Of a stretch of 64,000 bases of DNA, positions 374 to 61,316 are shown piece after piece. Source of the stretch: Candidatus Aenigmatarchaeota archaeon (lineage in GTDB: Archaea; Aenigmatarchaeota; Aenigmatarchaeia; PWEA01; JACQIF01); NCBI GenBank assembly GCA_016432325.1, contig CP066684.1, forward strand, positions 124,001 through 188,000, written 5' to 3'. Below the pieces are notes generated by a model, which had not been told where the DNA came from, did no database searches, and saw nothing but the letters and a program-made list of their open reading frames with translations. The translations under genes and the position numbers were made by a program. The first letter of the stretch is position 1. The number at the start of each line of letters is the position of its first letter.

Positions 374-436
374 ATGCCAGAAATTTCCGAAACAAGTTTC
401 GTCATTCCAGCCATGGGAGGTTTGAGACATGCCTGA
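374..436 (+). other. Upstream ORF duplicating the prefoldin start
   Basis: A 20-codon ORF (MPEISETS...) starts at the predicted 5' end of the mRNA and overlaps the pfdB start out of frame. Its first 15 bases match the first 15 bases of pfdB at 13 positions, and both encode MPEI. Between the copies lies the perfect hairpin CGAAAC-AA-GTTTCG at 388-401, then the SD GGGAGGT. The uORF could be translated as a leaderless message whose ribosomes open the leader for SD-driven initiation at 429. The duplication is seen; translation is inferred. Confidence 0.5.
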
Positions 437-794
437 AATTCCCCAGCAAGCGCAGCAGATGATAATGCAACTGCAGGCCGCGCAGCAGCAGTTGCAGGCG
501 TTCGCCATGCAGAGGCAGTCGCTCACCATGCAGAAGCACGAGATTGAAAAGGCGACAGAAGAACTCACGAGCGCGAACGACAAGGAAGACGTCTACAAGC
601 TATCCGGTCCCATAATGGTCCGTTCGACAAAATCAAAACTTCTGGACGAACTCAAGGAGCGCATAGCAAAGATAGATTCCGGAATCAAGCGGCTTGAAGA
701 CCACGAGAAGAAGATAGCCGAAAAGGCGCAGGAGAACCAGACCAAGCTCGAAAAGATGTTTGCCCCGCCTGAAACCAAGGGACAGGCCGGTTAG
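429..794 (+). CDS. pfdB: Prefoldin subunit beta
   Basis: A 121-residue protein with the prefoldin beta plan: N-terminal coiled coil (about residues 1-45, Gln-rich), a short hairpin region around KLSGPIMVRSTKSKLLDELKER, and a second long coiled coil to residue 110. Beta subunits (four) and alpha subunits (two) form the jellyfish-shaped hexamer that holds unfolded proteins and delivers them to the thermosome. The start at 429 is chosen from the strong SD GGGAGGT at 416-422. The leader carries an upstream ORF that copies the gene's own first codons (see 374-436). Confidence 0.9.
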   Translation: MPEIPQQAQQMIMQLQAAQQQLQAFAMQRQSLTMQKHEIEKATEELTSANDKEDVYKLSGPIMVRSTKSKLLDELKERIAKIDSGIKRLEDHEKKIAEKAQENQTKLEKMFAPPETKGQAG

Positions 795-2170: not shown

Positions 2171-3178
2171 TTAGTCGTGCACGAGAGGCGCAATCTTGCG
2201 CGGTTCAAAGCCGTTGCCGTTGGTGGTGTCCTTGTGTCTAATTTCCACCCACCCCGCGACGCGCTCGGCAATAGCATCTGGAGTGAAGCCGGCCTTGCGG
2301 TACAGGTCTTTCGGCGAGCCGGTCTCCCCCTTCTCGGCCCCTATTCTGCGCATGTGGGTCGGATACCTCTCCGAAAGCACGTCAGATACACTGCTCCCCA
2401 GCCCGCCGTCTATGCTGTGGTCTTCTGCTGTTACGACAAGACCGGTCTTCCTTGCATACTGTTCGATAAGCAAAGAGTCTATCGGTTTTATGGACGAGAT
2501 GTTTATCACCGCCGCACTCACGCCAGATCCCTCCAGCAGTGCTGCGGCTCCCAGCGACGGTTCTATCAGCGCCCCATAGCTCATTATCGCTACGTCGTCG
2601 CCGTCGCGAAGCACCTCGCCCTTTCCTATAGACCATTCCCAGTTGTCGTCGTGCAACGTCAATACTTCTGCGCGGGTCATGCTCATCGTCGCGGGTCCCG
2701 CGTATTTCGGGTCTTTTACGTTTGCGAGTTTGACTGTCATCTGTTTCGCTTCAACCCAGTCCGCCGGGCATAACACGGTGTCCGAGATCGCCTTGTTGTA
2801 TGATAGATAGTTGAGAACCTGGTTGCTCACGCCGTCTTGTCCGACCTGCAAGCCGACATGGCTGCCTACCTTGCAGACGTTGAGCTTCGCGCGCCTGACT
2901 ATCTGTTCGAACGGTTCGGCGGCGAGTTTGGAGAATCCCTCGAAGGTGGCGTAATAGACGCGTTCGCCTGTACGATGCGCCGCACCAGCCGCCATTGTGA
3001 CGCTGTCCTGTTCCGCTATGCCCGCATCAACGATGCGCCGCGGGTACTGTGCAGCGAAGTCCGCGAGGGACATGGAATTGCCAAGGTCCGATACGTAAAC
3101 GCGGATATTGTGCGTCTTGGCCGCTTCCACAGCGCCCCGACCGAGGCCGCTTCTCATCGATTCGTGCTGGCCCTTCAT
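2171..3178 (-). CDS. tktB: Transketolase, C-terminal subunit (split form)
   Basis: A 335-residue protein with the pyrimidine-binding and C-terminal domains of a split transketolase. Seen are the region RIVDAGIAEQDSVTMAAGAA with the Glu that activates thiamine diphosphate, and the swivelling C-terminal domain (VVTAEDHSIDGGLGSSVSDVL). Together with the N-terminal subunit encoded just upstream it transfers two-carbon units between sugar phosphates in the non-oxidative pentose phosphate pathway. The start at 3178 is backed by the SD AAGGAGG. A 190 bp spacer packed with hairpins separates the two halves, and the start codons ATGAAGGGC are repeated at its far end (3372). Archaea commonly split this enzyme. 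Confidence 0.88.
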   Translation of the reverse strand: MKGQHESMRSGLGRGAVEAAKTHNIRVYVSDLGNSMSLADFAAQYPRRIVDAGIAEQDSVTMAAGAAHRTGERVYYATFEGFSKLAAEPFEQIVRRAKLNVCKVGSHVGLQVGQDGVSNQVLNYLSYNKAISDTVLCPADWVEAKQMTVKLANVKDPKYAGPATMSMTRAEVLTLHDDNWEWSIGKGEVLRDGDDVAIMSYGALIEPSLGAAALLEGSGVSAAVINISSIKPIDSLLIEQYARKTGLVVTAEDHSIDGGLGSSVSDVLSERYPTHMRRIGAEKGETGSPKDLYRKAGFTPDAIAERVAGWVEIRHKDTTNGNGFEPRKIAPLVHD

Positions 3179-3372
3179 GCGCGACTCCCTCCTTCTCCGC
3201 GCTGCACGGGAACCGCAGTCCCCGGCATTTTCGAACAGCGGTTCGAAACTTTACGAATAGCTATTCGTAAACTTGCGACCGCGTCGCAAGAGTTCGACCG
3301 AAGGCCGAACATGTCGGGAAGCTCCACTTCCCGTACAGGGAAGGATGAAACCGCGTGTTTCGTGCCCTTCAT
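3175..3372 (-). other. Hairpin-rich spacer ORF between transketolase halves
   Basis: A 65-codon ORF starts at 3372 (ATGA overlap with the N-subunit stop) and ends on the ATG of the C-subunit (ATGA overlap). It begins MKGTKHAVSS, similar to the C-subunit start MKGQHESMRS; the first nine bases ATGAAGGGC are identical. Most of its length is made of back-to-back inverted repeats (3229-3333), so the encoded peptide is constrained by RNA structure and is unlikely to be a folded protein. It may act as a translated leader for the C-subunit. Open frame and repeats are seen; role is inferred. Confidence 0.45.
3229..3333. repeat. Chain of five inverted repeats
   Basis: Five hairpins follow each other almost without gaps: TTTCGAAC/GTTCGAAA (3229-3248), the perfect 22 bp palindrome at 3250-3271, CTTGCGAC/GTCGCAAG (3272-3290), GTTCG..CGAAC with an inner CC/GG (3292-3310), and CGGGAAG/CTTCCCG (3315-3333). 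Loops are 0 to 5 nt except in the fourth, which has an internal mismatch. All arms listed are perfect as written. Such a chain in a spacer inside an operon suggests an RNA structure controlling stability or the expression ratio of the two transketolase subunits, or a palindromic mobile repeat. Confidence 0.8.
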
Positions 3373-30750: not shown

Positions 30751-33000
30751 CTACTCCAGAATTATCGGTTGCTGGCCGTAAGGACCGTATGTGCGGCCTT
30801 TGAGGGAGGATATCTCGTTCTCCAGTCTCTCGATGCGGGCCAAGAGCTCTGCCGTGTGTTCGGGGCCTGTGCGCTCGGCCTCTGCAGCGACACGCGCCTT
30901 GAGCCTCTGCACTTCTTCGAGTTCTGCGCGCAGGCGACGCGCGTTCTGATCGAGGTCGCTGTGGACGCGCTGCACGTCGCTCTCTATCTGCCTCCTTATG
31001 TCGTCGACGCTGGCCACGGCACGCGCCTGTATCTTCTCTATCTCGCTCTCCGCCTGCCTCTTCTTGCGGTCCAGCTCTTCCGACAGCGCGAACAGCACGT
31101 TTTCGACCTTTGCCGTTGCGAGAGCCTCGGCGTCCTGCGTAAGTATTTCGCGCACGCTCTCCTTGAGGTTTCTCTGGACACCTCCGTATTTTTCGTCCAT
31201 TCTGCCTTCCAGCGCGTGCGCGCGGCTGTCGACGCGCTGCGCAACCATCGGCTCCAGGCCGGTGCGGAACTGTTCAAGGCGCGCCTTTGTTTCTCCGCGT
31301 ATCTCTTGCAGGCGCGCTTCGAACTTGCGCGATGCGGCCTCTGTGGCGCCGCGTACCTGTCCTGTCTGTTCGCGTACCTCAGAACGCATCGCATCGAGGG
31401 ACTCTTTGAACTCCTTGCGAAGGTTCTCCTCGCCCGTCCTCTGAAGGGCGAGCACGTTGTCTATCGCGTCAAGTTTCCTCTGGAGGTCTGAAATTGAATT
31501 GAAGTGTTCTCTCGTTATGTCGGCCAGAGACGAAGCGACAGAGGACTGCAGGGCCTCTGCCTTTTCCGCGTGTGATTGTTTGAGATAATCGAGCTGCTTG
31601 TTGTATTTGCCGTCCATGGCGTTCACGTGCGAACGCAGGGACTCTGCGATGCTGATGACCTCTTTCTTCATCGCTTCGGCCGTCTCGACGACCTGTTTTT
31701 CCAGTTCGCGGTCGGCTATCTCGGCGCGCGTCCTGGCGTTTTCAACAGAACCTTCGAAAGCCCTCATCTGGGAGTCCATCGCGTCGAACCTCTGCTGGTG
31801 TTGGACGGTGGAGTCGGCAACGGCCCTGTTCACCTCGCGGGAAAGCTTTTCGTCAAAGCCCTTGTTTTGAAGGTCCACGAGGTTTTCGAGATATTCTATC
31901 TTGCCGTCTATCTTTTGGAATACTCCTTTCTCGTCGAGCTGCTGCTCAACGAGCGCCGCGATTCCCGAGCGCAGCGACTCCTTCTCCGAATTGAGGTCCT
32001 TTATCACGGCTGCGAGCGTTTCGTTGACGTCCTTGAAGTTGCCGCTTATCTTCAGGAGCTTCGTGTTCATCGATTCCATCATCCTGTTTTCCAGAGCGGA
32101 CTCGCTCTCGGCCATCGCCGTTTCCATGCGTTCCAGCCTCCCGGCAAGCCCGTCGTTGGCGACGCGCAGGGCGGAATCCATAACTTCCAGCCTTCTCGCG
32201 AGTTCGATGAGTTTGGCCCTCTGTTCCTCGGACACGCGCGCCGTGTACAGCTTCTCCTGTTCGAGCTCCTTGTCCATGGAGGCTTTAGCGCGCGACACCG
32301 AAGCCTCCGCGGCAGAACGCACGGCATCCTTCATCGCGTCTGTCGCTTTCGCGATTTCAGCGGAGACGTACTTCTTGGTGCCCGCCTCCTGCAGCGACGC
32401 GACATTCTCCAGGGAGGTCATCCTGGTTGTGATGTCGCTGACGACAGCGCGATTCTCGTCAAGCGACGCCCTGAGCGCAGCGGCGAGTTCGGTCCGCCTT
32501 TCGGCAAGAGTCTTGTCCAGGGCGTCTATGGAAGAGTCTATCTTCTTGTTCAGCGCGGCAATTCCTGCGGCCATTTCGCGTTCCACGACTTCGCGCGTTT
32601 CCTTATCGCTTTTTCCAGACTGCGCTTCGATGCGATCGAGCCTTATCTGAAGATCCCTGAGTTCGGTGGCGCTGTCTGCGCTCGTCTGTTTCAGCCTTGC
32701 GAACGCGTCCTTCCTGAACGCATCGAAATCCTGCCGTATGGCCGAGGTTCCCTTTGCGATGCCCTCGGCAACGCTTTTTGACACATCGGCTTCGAACCCT
32801 CCGACTGTGTTCTCGAGCCTGCGGAGCTTGTCTGAAACCTCCTTCCTGAGGACGTCCAGATGCGCTGCCTGTTGGCCTTCCGTTTCGGACAGGCTGTCCG
32901 CCTTCCTCTCGATGTCATCGAGCCTTTTCTGAACGGCCGTGACCTTCTCAGTGACAGACTCAGTCACGTCCACGAGCCGCTTGACTATGCTGTCTTCCAT
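30751..33000 (-). CDS. Very long coiled-coil protein
   Basis: A 749-residue protein that is almost wholly heptad-patterned coiled coil, rich in Glu, Lys, Arg, Ala and Leu, with no Walker motif, membrane segment or signal peptide. It starts MEDSIVKRLVDVTESVTEKV and ends in a short non-helical tail GRTYGPYGQQPIILE. It is the last of four coiled-coil genes in one operon. It is probably structural (filament, scaffold or tether); no family is recognised. The sequence ATGGAAGTC, 20 bp upstream, repeats the gene start ATGGAAGAC with the SD GGTGAT between them. Confidence 0.8.
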   Translation of the reverse strand: MEDSIVKRLVDVTESVTEKVTAVQKRLDDIERKADSLSETEGQQAAHLDVLRKEVSDKLRRLENTVGGFEADVSKSVAEGIAKGTSAIRQDFDAFRKDAFARLKQTSADSATELRDLQIRLDRIEAQSGKSDKETREVVEREMAAGIAALNKKIDSSIDALDKTLAERRTELAAALRASLDENRAVVSDITTRMTSLENVASLQEAGTKKYVSAEIAKATDAMKDAVRSAAEASVSRAKASMDKELEQEKLYTARVSEEQRAKLIELARRLEVMDSALRVANDGLAGRLERMETAMAESESALENRMMESMNTKLLKISGNFKDVNETLAAVIKDLNSEKESLRSGIAALVEQQLDEKGVFQKIDGKIEYLENLVDLQNKGFDEKLSREVNRAVADSTVQHQQRFDAMDSQMRAFEGSVENARTRAEIADRELEKQVVETAEAMKKEVISIAESLRSHVNAMDGKYNKQLDYLKQSHAEKAEALQSSVASSLADITREHFNSISDLQRKLDAIDNVLALQRTGEENLRKEFKESLDAMRSEVREQTGQVRGATEAASRKFEARLQEIRGETKARLEQFRTGLEPMVAQRVDSRAHALEGRMDEKYGGVQRNLKESVREILTQDAEALATAKVENVLFALSEELDRKKRQAESEIEKIQARAVASVDDIRRQIESDVQRVHSDLDQNARRLRAELEEVQRLKARVAAEAERTGPEHTAELLARIERLENEISSLKGRTYGPYGQQPIILE

Positions 33001-33022
33001 TGAATATCACCGACTTCCATCG

Positions 33023-34408: not shown

Positions 34409-34692
34409 CAGCGCTCACCGACGCTTTTTCTGAGAGCACGCAATATCTCTTCCTCGTCTCCGAGAACGCTCTCCACTATCTCGGATTTTATGCTGTCCGC
34501 CGACTTGAGCCTGCCTTCCATGCCGTCGATTCTGCTTTCAAGCATGCGCACCTTTCGCTTGAGCTCTTCCAGCATGGATGTGAGATACTCTACGTCTTTT
34601 GAAGGCGCGGCGTGCGCGCTTCCGAGTTCTTCCCTGACCTCTTTCAGGGACTCTTCCACGGCTTCACGCACGGCGTCTTTAAGGGTTCCCAT
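34408..34692 (-). CDS. Short coiled-coil protein
   Basis: A 94-residue helical protein (MGTLKDAVREAVEESLKEVR; LTSMLEELKRKVRMLESRID). The start at 34692 has the SD GGTGA. The frame is open upstream to 34782, but that part consists of tandem palindromes and is probably leader. A separate 32-codon upstream ORF at 34796 begins MGTMK, a near copy of this gene's MGTLK. Function unknown; part of the coiled-coil operon. Confidence 0.65.
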   Translation of the reverse strand: MGTLKDAVREAVEESLKEVREELGSAHAAPSKDVEYLTSMLEELKRKVRMLESRIDGMEGRLKSADSIKSEIVESVLGDEEEILRALRKSVGER

Positions 34693-34697
34693 GAACT

Positions 34698-34796
34698 TCA
34701 CCAATTTCCTCGTGGGATGTACGAGAACCACGTTCTCGACATGTCGAAATTCCACGGAATTTCGTACAACTTGAAATCGCATTTCATTGTTCCCAT
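34698..34796 (-). other. Upstream ORF copying the coiled-coil gene start
   Basis: Starting 1 bp after the previous gene's TAG, ATGGGAACAATGAAA (MGTMK) opens a 32-codon ORF ending in TGA, 5 bp before the real start ATGGGAACCCTTAAA (MGTLK). The copies share ATGGGAAC and codon 5. Four palindromes fill the space between. This is the same layout as at the prefoldin, OB-fold and transketolase genes. Confidence 0.5.
34722..34786. repeat. Chain of four palindromes
   Basis: In plus-strand order: CGAGAAC/GTTCTCG (34722-34738, 3 nt loop), the perfect 12 bp palindrome TCGACATGTCGA (34736-34747), CGAAATTCC/GGAATTTCG (34745-34764, 2 nt loop) and TGAAAT-CGC-ATTTCA (34772-34786). Neighbouring palindromes share their outer bases. 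The chain lies in a spacer inside the coiled-coil operon. Confidence 0.8.
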
Positions 34797-51726: not shown

Positions 51727-51744
51727 GATAATCGGAGTTCCTTC

Positions 51745-52015
51745 TGTGGGATAGGCCGGGGGAGCTAGGGGTCCCTTGCAAGCGCAAACCCTCTACAGCG
51801 CGGCCGAAAAGCCTGGAGAGGTCCGGTTGTACGGCAGGCCTCAGGAACTGACTGAGAAGTCCTGTCCTTCTGGAGCGCTTCAGGCGCGAACCTGGTCAGG
51901 CCCGGAAGGGAGCAGCCATAAGCGTCTGCAACGCTGTTAGAAGGGTAGCAGGATGGAGAAGGCTTCTGGGACAACCTTCCGTGTGACCAAAGATCCATCC
52001 AGGCGAATCCCATCA
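51745..52015 (+). ncRNA. ffs: Signal recognition particle 7S RNA
   Basis: The universally conserved helix 8 core GGTCAGGCCCGGAAGGGAGC followed by AGCC occurs near 51895, the SRP54-binding site. The 5' end TGGGAT (51747-51752) pairs with the 3' ATCCCA (52007-52012), forming the closing helix 1 of archaeal 7S RNA. The GGGGTCCC-like segments near 51765 fit the Alu-domain loops and the rest fits the long helix 5. Length is about 270 nt, slightly shorter than in many archaea. It partners SRP54 (14440). Confidence 0.88.
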
Positions 52016-54615: not shown

Positions 54616-54645
54616 CTTTATATCGCGCCTCACCCATTTCTTCGC

Positions 54646-54741
54646 ATGAAGTTTACCGCTCAGAGAGCCAAGAGGGACCGGTAAATGCATGAAACTGCGG
54701 TTTCATATTTACTTCGCAGAGATATGGGAGGTGCTCGGTAA
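54646..54741 (+). promoter_or_regulatory. HerA-like gene leader with two in-frame upstream ORFs
   Basis: A TATA (TTTATATCG, about 54617-54625) predicts a start near 54646, where a 12-codon ORF begins (MKFTAQRAKRDR, stop TAA). Directly after its stop, ATG 54685 opens an 18-codon ORF whose TAA touches the HerA-like ATG 54742. All three are in one frame. The 10 bp sequence CGGTAAATGC occurs at both ORF junctions (54679 and 54737). Between them is the perfect hairpin ATGAAAC-TGCG-GTTTCAT (54689-54706), and the SD GGGAGGTG follows. Confidence 0.5.
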
Positions 54742-56034
54742 ATGCCCGTCCGTCCAATAGTCATCGGCAGAGACGAAGAGGACGCGAAGCGTTTTGGCGA
54801 ACTGGGCACGATCACCCTCGGCAAGCACATCGTCGGCACAGGCGAGGACGCGCATCTCACGAACACGATAGTGATGGACGTCGCGCGTCCGCACGTGATG
54901 CTCGTTCTGGGCAAGCGCGGCCAGGGCAAGTCCTACACGCTCGCGACCATAGCAGAAGGCGTAACAGAGCTGCCTAAGGATATCCGCTCGAACCTCTCTG
55001 TCGTGATAATCGATACCATGGGAATCTTCTGGTCCATGAAAAATCCGAACGAAAAACAGGTCGAACTCCTCGCCGCGTGGGGTCTTCAACCCAAGGCTTT
55101 CGACGTTACGGTTTACGTGCCGCACGGCCACAAGGATTTCTTCCATAAGGAGGGCATCCCTTACGACGGGACGTACGCTTTGAATCCGTCTGACCTTACT
55201 CCAGAGGACTGGGCGCTGTCTTTCGAACTGTCTCTGATAGACCCGACTGGCATACTTCTCGATCGTGTCGTGCGCAAGCTGAAAGAGAGCGGCAGCTATG
55301 GAATCGACGACATCATAGAAGCCGTAGACGCGGACAGGCGGGCCGAGCCGAAAGTCAAGGAAGCCCTGCAGAACCGCCTGCTTTCGGCAAAGGAGTGGGG
55401 TCTCTTCTCGTCGCGCGGCACGCCGATAGAGGAGCTCCTGCAGCCCGGCAAGGTTTCTATAATCGACACGTCGCTCTTCAGCCAGCTCGGGGAAGGATGG
55501 AGCGTGCGCTCGCTTCTTGTGGGTTTGGTGGCTCGTCGCATATACGAAGCCCGCATCGCCGCCCGCAGGCGCGAGGAGACAGAACTGATCACCGGTACGG
55601 TCGCCAAGAAGAAGATTCCTTTGACGTGGTTGATGATAGACGAGGCGCACCAGTTCCTGCCGGCGGACGGACGTACAGCGGCCACTGAAGCGCTGCTCTC
55701 TCTCGTGAAGCAGGGCCGCCAGCCCGGCATTTCCTGCGTGTTCGCCACTCAACGCCCGAACAAGCTTCACGAGGACGCGATATCGCAGGCCGACCTCGTG
55801 CTCACGCACCGCCTGACAGTAAAGGCGGACATCGATGCGCTGCGCAGCATCATGCAGACGTACGTTCTTTTCGACATCACGAAATATCTCAATGAACTGC
55901 CTCGCGAGAAAGGTGTGGCGCTTGTGCTGGACGACAATTCGGAACGCCTGTTTACGTTGAAGGTAAAACCGCGCCAGTCATGGCATGCAGGCGACACGCC
56001 GATAGCGCTGAGAGTGAAGGAAGGGCTGGTTTAG
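54742..56034 (+). CDS. HerA-like/FtsK-type ATPase (DUF87)
   Basis: A 430-residue ATPase. The N-terminal beta HAS-like region (GTITLGKHIVGTGEDAHLTN) leads to Walker A VLGKRGQGKSYTLATIAEG (about 55-73), Walker B PLTWLMIDEAHQFLP and the arginine/sensor region ISCVFATQRPNKLHEDAISQ. Such ATPases form hexamers that pump DNA or proteins. True HerA works with NurA in end resection, but no nurA is seen nearby, so the role is open. The SD is GGGAGGTG before ATG 54742. It overlaps purB by 4 bp at the 3' end. Confidence 0.82.
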   Translation: MPVRPIVIGRDEEDAKRFGELGTITLGKHIVGTGEDAHLTNTIVMDVARPHVMLVLGKRGQGKSYTLATIAEGVTELPKDIRSNLSVVIIDTMGIFWSMKNPNEKQVELLAAWGLQPKAFDVTVYVPHGHKDFFHKEGIPYDGTYALNPSDLTPEDWALSFELSLIDPTGILLDRVVRKLKESGSYGIDDIIEAVDADRRAEPKVKEALQNRLLSAKEWGLFSSRGTPIEELLQPGKVSIIDTSLFSQLGEGWSVRSLLVGLVARRIYEARIAARRREETELITGTVAKKKIPLTWLMIDEAHQFLPADGRTAATEALLSLVKQGRQPGISCVFATQRPNKLHEDAISQADLVLTHRLTVKADIDALRSIMQTYVLFDITKYLNELPREKGVALVLDDNSERLFTLKVKPRQSWHAGDTPIALRVKEGLV

Positions 56035-60737: not shown

Positions 60738-61316
60738 ATGGACGCCAAGATTATGTTCGCCCAGGCCTTCGGGACGGGCAACGAGATAAGCACGCTCGTC
60801 CAGAGCGAGTTCTTCGCGTACGCGCTGCCGTTCCTGTTCGCTTTTGCGGTGGTTTACGGTCTGCTGAGCCACGTCGGCGAGAAGGGTCTGCCGGAGGACA
60901 AGCACTCGCGCGTGGTTATTGCTCTTGCTTCTGGATTCCTTGTATTGCCGATTGCGCCCAGCTTGGTAGGAATACTCAGCACGGTGTCGAGCGGGCTTGT
61001 GGTTGGCGTTGGAGCACTCCTGATTCTCGTAATACTATTCGAACTACTTGGTGTACGCTCAAGTAAGAAGGTGCCTGTCCTCGAGGGAGGCAAGCACGTT
61101 GGATACCAAGACATCCCAATGTCTATCTTCGAAGCACACAATAAGATGTTCTTGGCGCTCCTTGCTATAATAGCCGTTTTGATATTCGCAAACGCCGGAT
61201 GGTTCTCGGCTCTGGGTCTGCCCACACCAGACTTCCTGTTTAACTCGCCGCTAATCCTTTTCGTTATATTCATGATTGCGATAGTAGCGTGGGTTAGCCG
61301 AGGGGAGCAAACATGA
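60738..61316 (+). CDS. Four-helix membrane protein, tandem paralogue A
   Basis: A 192-residue protein with four or five membrane segments. Shared landmarks with the next gene are the start (GNEISTLVQSEFFAYALPFL), FAVVYGLLSHVG, the loop RVVIALASGFLVLPIAPSLV and the end (FANAGWFSALGLPTPDFLFN). Function unknown. TATA CTTAAATAAAG near 60699. It overlaps the next gene by 4 bp (ATGA). Confidence 0.7.
   Translation: MDAKIMFAQAFGTGNEISTLVQSEFFAYALPFLFAFAVVYGLLSHVGEKGLPEDKHSRVVIALASGFLVLPIAPSLVGILSTVSSGLVVGVGALLILVILFELLGVRSSKKVPVLEGGKHVGYQDIPMSIFEAHNKMFLALLAIIAVLIFANAGWFSALGLPTPDFLFNSPLILFVIFMIAIVAWVSRGEQT

Follow-up and report, generated by a model that had tools for sequence, protein, structure and literature searches.

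A hairpin-bearing leader that probably belongs to a family of small insertions at gene edges in a Candidatus Aenigmatarchaeota genome

The window analysed here is a stretch of 64,000 nucleotides (positions 124001-188000) of the one-contig, 874,769-base genome of a Candidatus Aenigmatarchaeota archaeon (hereafter G000), and close to its beginning, on the plus strand, lies the prefoldin gene pfdB (ORF 429-794, Prefoldin_2), preceded by a leader in which the start region of the gene is present twice. A TATA-like box, TATAAATA (345-352), lies 29 nt before ATG 374 and is followed by an outer copy of the start region, here called the decoy (ATGCCAGAAATTTCC, 374-388), at what would be the ancestral start position; then come the conserved hairpin CGAAAC-AA-GTTTCG (388-401), an antisense copy of the start, here called X' (ATTCCAGCCATG, 404-415), which pairs at 10 of 12 positions with the true start (CATGCCTGAAAT) and at 8 of 11 with the decoy, a Shine-Dalgarno (SD) sequence, GGGAGG (415-420), which an insertion would have brought along, and the true start copy itself (ATGCCTGAAATTCCC, 429-443). 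Promoter and SD assignments, here and below, are by consensus only. The original prediction had described the two start copies, identical at 13 of 15 positions, with the hairpin and the SD between them, and all of these are found in the sequence; an mRNA 5' end at or near position 374, where it had placed it exactly, is plausible because of the TATA-like box 29 nt upstream of that ATG. The antisense copy X' is new relative to that description, as is a second copy of the leader: a genome search places it 5 kb away, immediately upstream of the proteasome alpha gene (psmA), with 96% identity over 70 bases. psmA also starts with ATGCCTGAAAT, like pfdB. The nearest named relative of the genome that was found is an Aenigmatarchaeota MAG, its proteasome alpha protein being 63% identical. 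Above the Rfam gathering score, none of the units described here is matched, and only rRNAs and an archaeal SRP RNA (RF01857, window 51744-52015, the sole match in the window) are found.

The predicted recurrence of this layout at three further genes of the window, and of a related form at the HerA-like gene, was borne out by direct reading of each of them. The HerA-like gene (Pfam DUF87, plus strand, gene start 54742) has the decoy GGTAAATGC (54680-54688), the hairpin ATGAAAC-TGCG-GTTTCAT (54689-54706), X' as ATTTAC (54707-54712) and the true copy GGTAAATGC (54737-54745), with a decoy-to-true spacing (54685/54742) of 57 nt; a second, hairpin-deleted copy of the right part of the unit (TTTACCGCTCAGAGAGCCAAGAGGGACCGGTAAATG) lies 5' of its decoy (window 54640-54700), which suggests two insertions in succession. 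On the minus strand, the leader of the OB-fold gene (26199-26264) runs from the decoy ATGCCCGAACT (26264) through a hairpin (26236-26252), X' AGTTTCCGG and an SD to a true TTG start at 26210, a spacing of 54 nt, and that of the coiled-coil gene (34692-34796, also minus) runs from the decoy ATGGGAACA (34796) through a hairpin (34772-34786) and the SD sequence GGTGAAGTTC to the true start at 34692, a spacing of 104 nt that includes two extra hairpins (34722-34764) with linkers TGTAC/GACATGTC/GTACA. The transketolase C-half gene (tktC, minus, 3178-3372) has the decoy ATGAAGGGCAC (3372), a GAAAC hairpin (3347-3361) and tandem hairpins (3229-3333), so that with its several hairpins 194 nt separate 3372 from the true start at 3178. 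A related form predicted at 33000 is weaker: upstream of a 749-aa ORF (33000-33020, minus) there are a start copy, ATGGAAG, and an SD, but the copy is only 20 nt away and there is no hairpin, and this is possibly a shortened unit. The tandem hairpin arrays (window 3229-3333 and 34722-34764; L020:12702-12750 and 13555; L084 and L096 of the related genome G001) constitute a second hairpin class, found within some of the leaders and in the neighbourhood of tRNA-like genes, in which the linkers are conserved (GTGTAC - hairpin - GACATGTC - hairpin - GTACAC) and the arm sequences vary.

Statistics for G000 cover 448 kb of the 875 kb, the stretches around hairpins outside these 448 kb having been added separately. 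Within the 448 kb, GAAAC/GTTTC is the most enriched of all 1024 possible 5-bp hairpin stems (25 against 2.8 expected), and the pattern GAAACN{2,6}GTTTC occurs 59 times genome-wide, against 4 times for the reversed control pattern, which, together with the near-identical leader at psmA, makes the phenomenon more extensive than originally described. Almost half of these hairpins (27/59, 46%) lie 20-64 nt upstream of an SD-led ORF on one strand, compared with 14% of random positions, and some 25 copies are found ahead of gene starts with a common layout, usually the decoy copy of the start region, the hairpin, a short gap, X', the SD and the true start. The spacing cluster at 54-57 nt that had been predicted holds for the OB-fold and HerA-like genes and agrees with 16 curated cases, the gene-sense orientation of curated units having been partly picked by inspection (mean 54.8 nt, sd 2.0, range 51-59, with the HerA-like case entered as 55), but not with tktC or the coiled-coil gene; the hairpin-to-start distances bunch near 28 and at 37. 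Within the 448 kb, a search for the complete layout (a copy of at least 11/14 plus the hairpin) gave about 5 plausible matches, compared with 0.25 for Markov shuffles and 2 for a reversed-sequence control. When 28 units were anchored on the hairpin and their flanks permuted among units as a control, a decoy-to-true similarity score of at least 10 was seen in 8 (0.45 expected), a decoy-X' stem of at least 7 in 8 (0.26 expected) and an X'-true stem of at least 7 in 13 (3.05 expected), these three relations not being independent, as any two of them partly imply the third. Start-region repeats anchored on the hairpin exceed their controls, whereas direct repeats at 51-59 nt without a hairpin show no clear genome-wide peak, and for this reason the hairpin has to be regarded as the defining anchor of the unit. 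Exact 7-mer triples (X, X', X) without a hairpin are barely more frequent than in shuffles (19 against about 11), and the overall palindrome density of the window is not above that of shuffles.

The host genes supported by Pfam comprise those for prefoldin, proteasome alpha, an RNase PH-type exosome subunit, the HerA-like ATPase, L7Ae, L19e, L44e, S17e, S12, Pop5, SMC, an OB-fold tRNA-synthetase-like protein, an ASCH protein, a KaiC-like ATPase, the OB-fold protein and transketolase C, while the L39e-like, Sec61-beta-like and ferredoxin genes were named by eye only. At S17e (G000:757398-757449) the 51-nt unit is in frame and has no stop, and the protein may, judging by the reading frame, carry a 17-residue N-terminal extension. 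In one subset of units the right end is GGTGAAGTTC, immediately 5' of the ATG; this 13-mer occurs four times in G000, three times at gene starts, all with hairpin leaders, and once elsewhere than at a gene start. In a second subset (S12, Pop5, SMC, HerA-like), a AGAGGTGACC-GTAA-like sequence precedes the start and the hairpin-to-start distance is 37, and with such subset-specific right ends the units therefore form sequence families of their own. It could be imagined that no element exists at all and that template switching at short inverted repeats produced the direct and inverted copies as a mutational by-product, as local sequence is copied in every unit both directly and in inverted form and dense hairpin arrays occur elsewhere in the genome; this is, nevertheless, improbable in view of the same hairpin sequence in most units, the right end common to a subset, the near-identical unit at two genes and the strong bias towards gene starts.

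Some units of G000 adjoin tRNA-like genes. Near 60994 and 292734 they are located 3' of CCAGCGCCA ends, and one unit (629813) is located 5' of a GCGGGGG... 5' end; a diverged counterpart of the unit near 60994 occurs in G001. Without exception, it is the true copy that joins the gene without a break, and the hairpin is on the decoy side. Neither ARAGORN nor Rfam called the tRNA-like genes beside the hairpins, which were assigned by eye from acceptor stems and CCA ends. Two regions (L056 and L010, G000:60994 and 246784) hold tRNA-like genes with apparent T-loop insertions, likewise uncalled by either, and a tRNA 3' end (GGTCCACCA) repeated in tandem about every 49 nt around hairpins. That some of these genes appear, by eye, to be intron-bearing, and that excising one repeat length would restore the ancestral start, brings to mind a bulge-helix-bulge (BHB) intron removed from the mRNA to leave a leaderless start, which we consider barely credible: no BHB can form across the ends of the unit, because they are direct repeats and not complementary, and in the decoy-X' hairpin there is a facing internal loop instead of two staggered 3-nt bulges.

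The original prediction had first suggested a relay, in which a leaderless ribosome would start at the decoy, open the hairpin, stop at the SD and re-initiate at the true start. The TATA-like box ahead of the pfdB decoy ATG agrees with this, and in about half of the upstream ORFs, eight in number (psmA, pfdB, rrp42, L19e, ASCH, Sec61-beta-like, ferredoxin and S12), the end lies less than 9 nt from the true start, so that local coupling may operate at these. The decoys of L7Ae and g321, however, have no start codon, three upstream ORFs (g395, OB, L44e) stop about 40 nt early, at S17e the decoy is in frame and no stop follows, and units of a similar kind lie beside tRNA-like genes, so that a relay may operate at some genes without being the general rule; as an explanation of the leaders it is quite unlikely, a shade more so than the mutational by-product.

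The same note had offered a palindromic element that inserts at start codons and duplicates them, and it is here that the comparison with relatives is most telling. G001 (73% complete) was the sole genome of the same genus compared; G008 and G010 represent another family of the same order, and G016 and G089 are more distant. Orthologous starts in G001 mostly have no unit. When the 45 nt upstream of each G001 start were aligned to G000 at every offset, the decoy side was clearly preferred over the true start at g321 (30/18.5), Pop5 (27/7), the L39e-like gene (27/5.5), L19e (17/8), pfdB (16/5) and psmA (13/7), marginally so and just above shuffles at rrp42 (11/7) and SMC (10/5), and the alignments at the OB and ASCH genes were weak or gave no clear preference. 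At pfdB, the distance of 29 nt from the TATA-like box to the ATG is found in both genomes, leading to the decoy in G000 and to the only ATG in G001. Because the upstream context in G001 aligns with the decoy and not with the true start, the units look like lineage-specific insertions that duplicated the gene edge, and the lack of both copy and hairpin in the sister genome, which was to have counted against the feature, argues for recent insertion instead. Two genomes cannot separate gain in G000 from loss in G001, yet the position of the decoy, the tandem units and the unit shared by psmA and pfdB favour gain; at L44e, G001 has two tandem units with three copies of ATGGAAGTC, and G000 has one different unit. 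The layout precedes other genes in G001, G008 and G010 (an example from G010/G008 with a copied SD-ATG region reads GGTGATTAAATG-ca-TGAAACttgtGTTTCA-tt-TTTAATCA-ataaa-GGTGATTAAATG), and at the L39e-like gene and pfdB a unit is present in both G000 and G010. In G016 and G089 the GAAAC hairpin is present and the start layout was not seen. A GAAAC hairpin pair also lies inside the 16S rRNA gene of G010 (L118:828-840, by eye), between GATTAGATAC and CCCGGTAG.

Layout, recurrence, the three sequence relations, the presence or absence of the unit when compared with G001 and the decoy's place at the old start are direct observations. Their best explanation is that the pfdB leader probably belongs, as one copy among many, to a family of short hairpin-bearing insertions landing at gene edges, mostly translation starts. 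The empty sites in G001, the tandem insertions and the near-identical psmA copy all support the inserting palindrome put forward in the original prediction. Such an insertion would add a net 51-59 bp or so, carrying the conserved GAAAC-N2-5-GTTTC hairpin, X' and usually an SD, and would duplicate the gene edge in such a way that the outer copy (the decoy) stays where the old start was and the inner copy takes over as true start; with its own SD and a rebuilt start, it would convert a gene that had been leaderless, or led in some other way, to SD-led initiation and leave the gene intact. The unit would be mobile by some route and might spread between genes with similar starts, such as psmA and pfdB. 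Against the insertion reading, the insert sequences differ by locus, only the hairpin being shared, together with the right end within subsets, and the decoy-to-true distance is nearly constant while the copy length varies from 7 to 29 nt, which is unusual for an ordinary target-site duplication. As for a mobilising enzyme, the three searched for in G000 (Y1 transposase, Cas1 and RVT_1) are absent, as is Y1 transposase from G001, G008 and G010. A reverse transcriptase domain is encoded in G001 (C68:5595-6011) and absent from G000. Phage records gave no similar sequence, viral contigs no match to the hairpin-plus-right-end pattern, and a full-text literature search no paper describing such an element.

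Once in place, a unit might also affect translation, the start being open when X' pairs with the decoy and closed when X' pairs with the true start. Translational riboswitches have expression platforms of this kind, with anti-SD and anti-anti-SD segments, and it may be asked whether the leaders are primarily cis-acting switches in which X' is the anti-start and the decoy the anti-anti-start, the balance being tipped by a factor that binds the GAAAC hairpin or by a ribosome on the decoy, and the units persisting through their regulation of ribosomal and other core genes. As in riboswitches, three segments around the start could pair with one another, and their complementarity is above permuted controls; that between X' and the true start is retained at genes with a decayed decoy (dksA-like, SMC, g104), which suggests some selection on start sequestration. 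The targets are mostly core genes (L7Ae, L19e, L44e, S12, S17e, proteasome, exosome), the two preferred hairpin-to-start distances and the L39e-like and pfdB units shared with G010 fit a switch, and three of four folded leaders (HerA-like, ferredoxin, g395) are predicted to form the decoy-X' hairpin with the start free. The pfdB leader itself, in contrast, folds no better than shuffles, and the proposed decoy-X' form is absent from its predicted folding; orthologues in G001 have no unit, and units also adjoin tRNA-like genes. Unlike in a riboswitch, there is no conserved aptamer beyond the 5-7 bp hairpin and no Rfam match in the window except the SRP RNA. Changes within the stems do not preserve wobble pairing in the sense RNA, as A.C mismatches outnumber G.U by 7 to 2 (X'-true) and 5 to 0 (decoy-X'), small numbers as these are, and selection on the sense RNA is therefore not supported. 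A switch as the primary explanation is thus kept as a somewhat unlikely rival, one that would also fit the insertion reading if the unit had been put to this use later.

Taken as an insertion, the unit resembles several known small elements without coinciding with any of them. REP/BIME palindromes, which are moved by Y1 (RAYT) transposases, have hairpins of about the same size and many copies; here, in contrast, Y1 transposase was found in none of the four genomes searched and the target is duplicated. Prokaryotic MITEs are small, non-autonomous and palindromic and duplicate their target (reviewed in PMC10969869), and the decoy/true repeats and the G001 empty sites show the same duplication, with a copy length of 7-29 nt; the present units, though, have no terminal inverted repeats at both ends but one hairpin near the decoy side and an SD/start as the right end, are mostly not plainly intergenic and have no partner transposase among Y1_Tnp, Cas1 and RVT_1 in G000, the lack of a Cas1 integrase there also speaking against integration of the casposon/CRISPR type. 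The palindromic elements of Rickettsia (RPE), about 150 bp long and lying in frame inside ORFs, are likewise short palindromic insertions in core-metabolism genes that the host gene tolerates (PMC10969869), whereas the units described here are about 55 bp, sit at the start, duplicate it and supply an SD; they are upstream of the true start and mostly out of frame, with S17e as the one in-frame case, and the peptides of their upstream ORFs are not conserved. Yeast mitochondrial GC clusters (GC42) share with them palindromic units of about 40 nt, a patchy distribution, fast turnover, merging and the lack of a known enzyme (PMC4478555), but are mostly intergenic with duplications of 2-3 nt (AG or ACT) (PMC4478555), whereas the present units copy 7-29 nt of the gene edge and add an antisense copy.

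A stronger version of the insertion reading, rather unlikely and a little less probable than the switch, is that a minimal mobile hairpin selects, or is adapted to, its target by means of an antisense copy of the edge of the gene. It would reconstruct this edge with a ribosome-binding site of its own, thereby equip essential genes with a prefabricated switch that sequesters the start, and spread between genes that share a start sequence. If the insertion reading is right, a tiny element would be moving the core genes of a DPANN archaeon one after another, and unbroken, away from leaderless and towards SD-led initiation, which would offer a concrete route for the origin of leaders and regulatory structure in a lineage where leaderless genes seem to be common, and the natural pairs of filled and empty sites would allow leaderless and SD-led initiation to be compared on one and the same gene.
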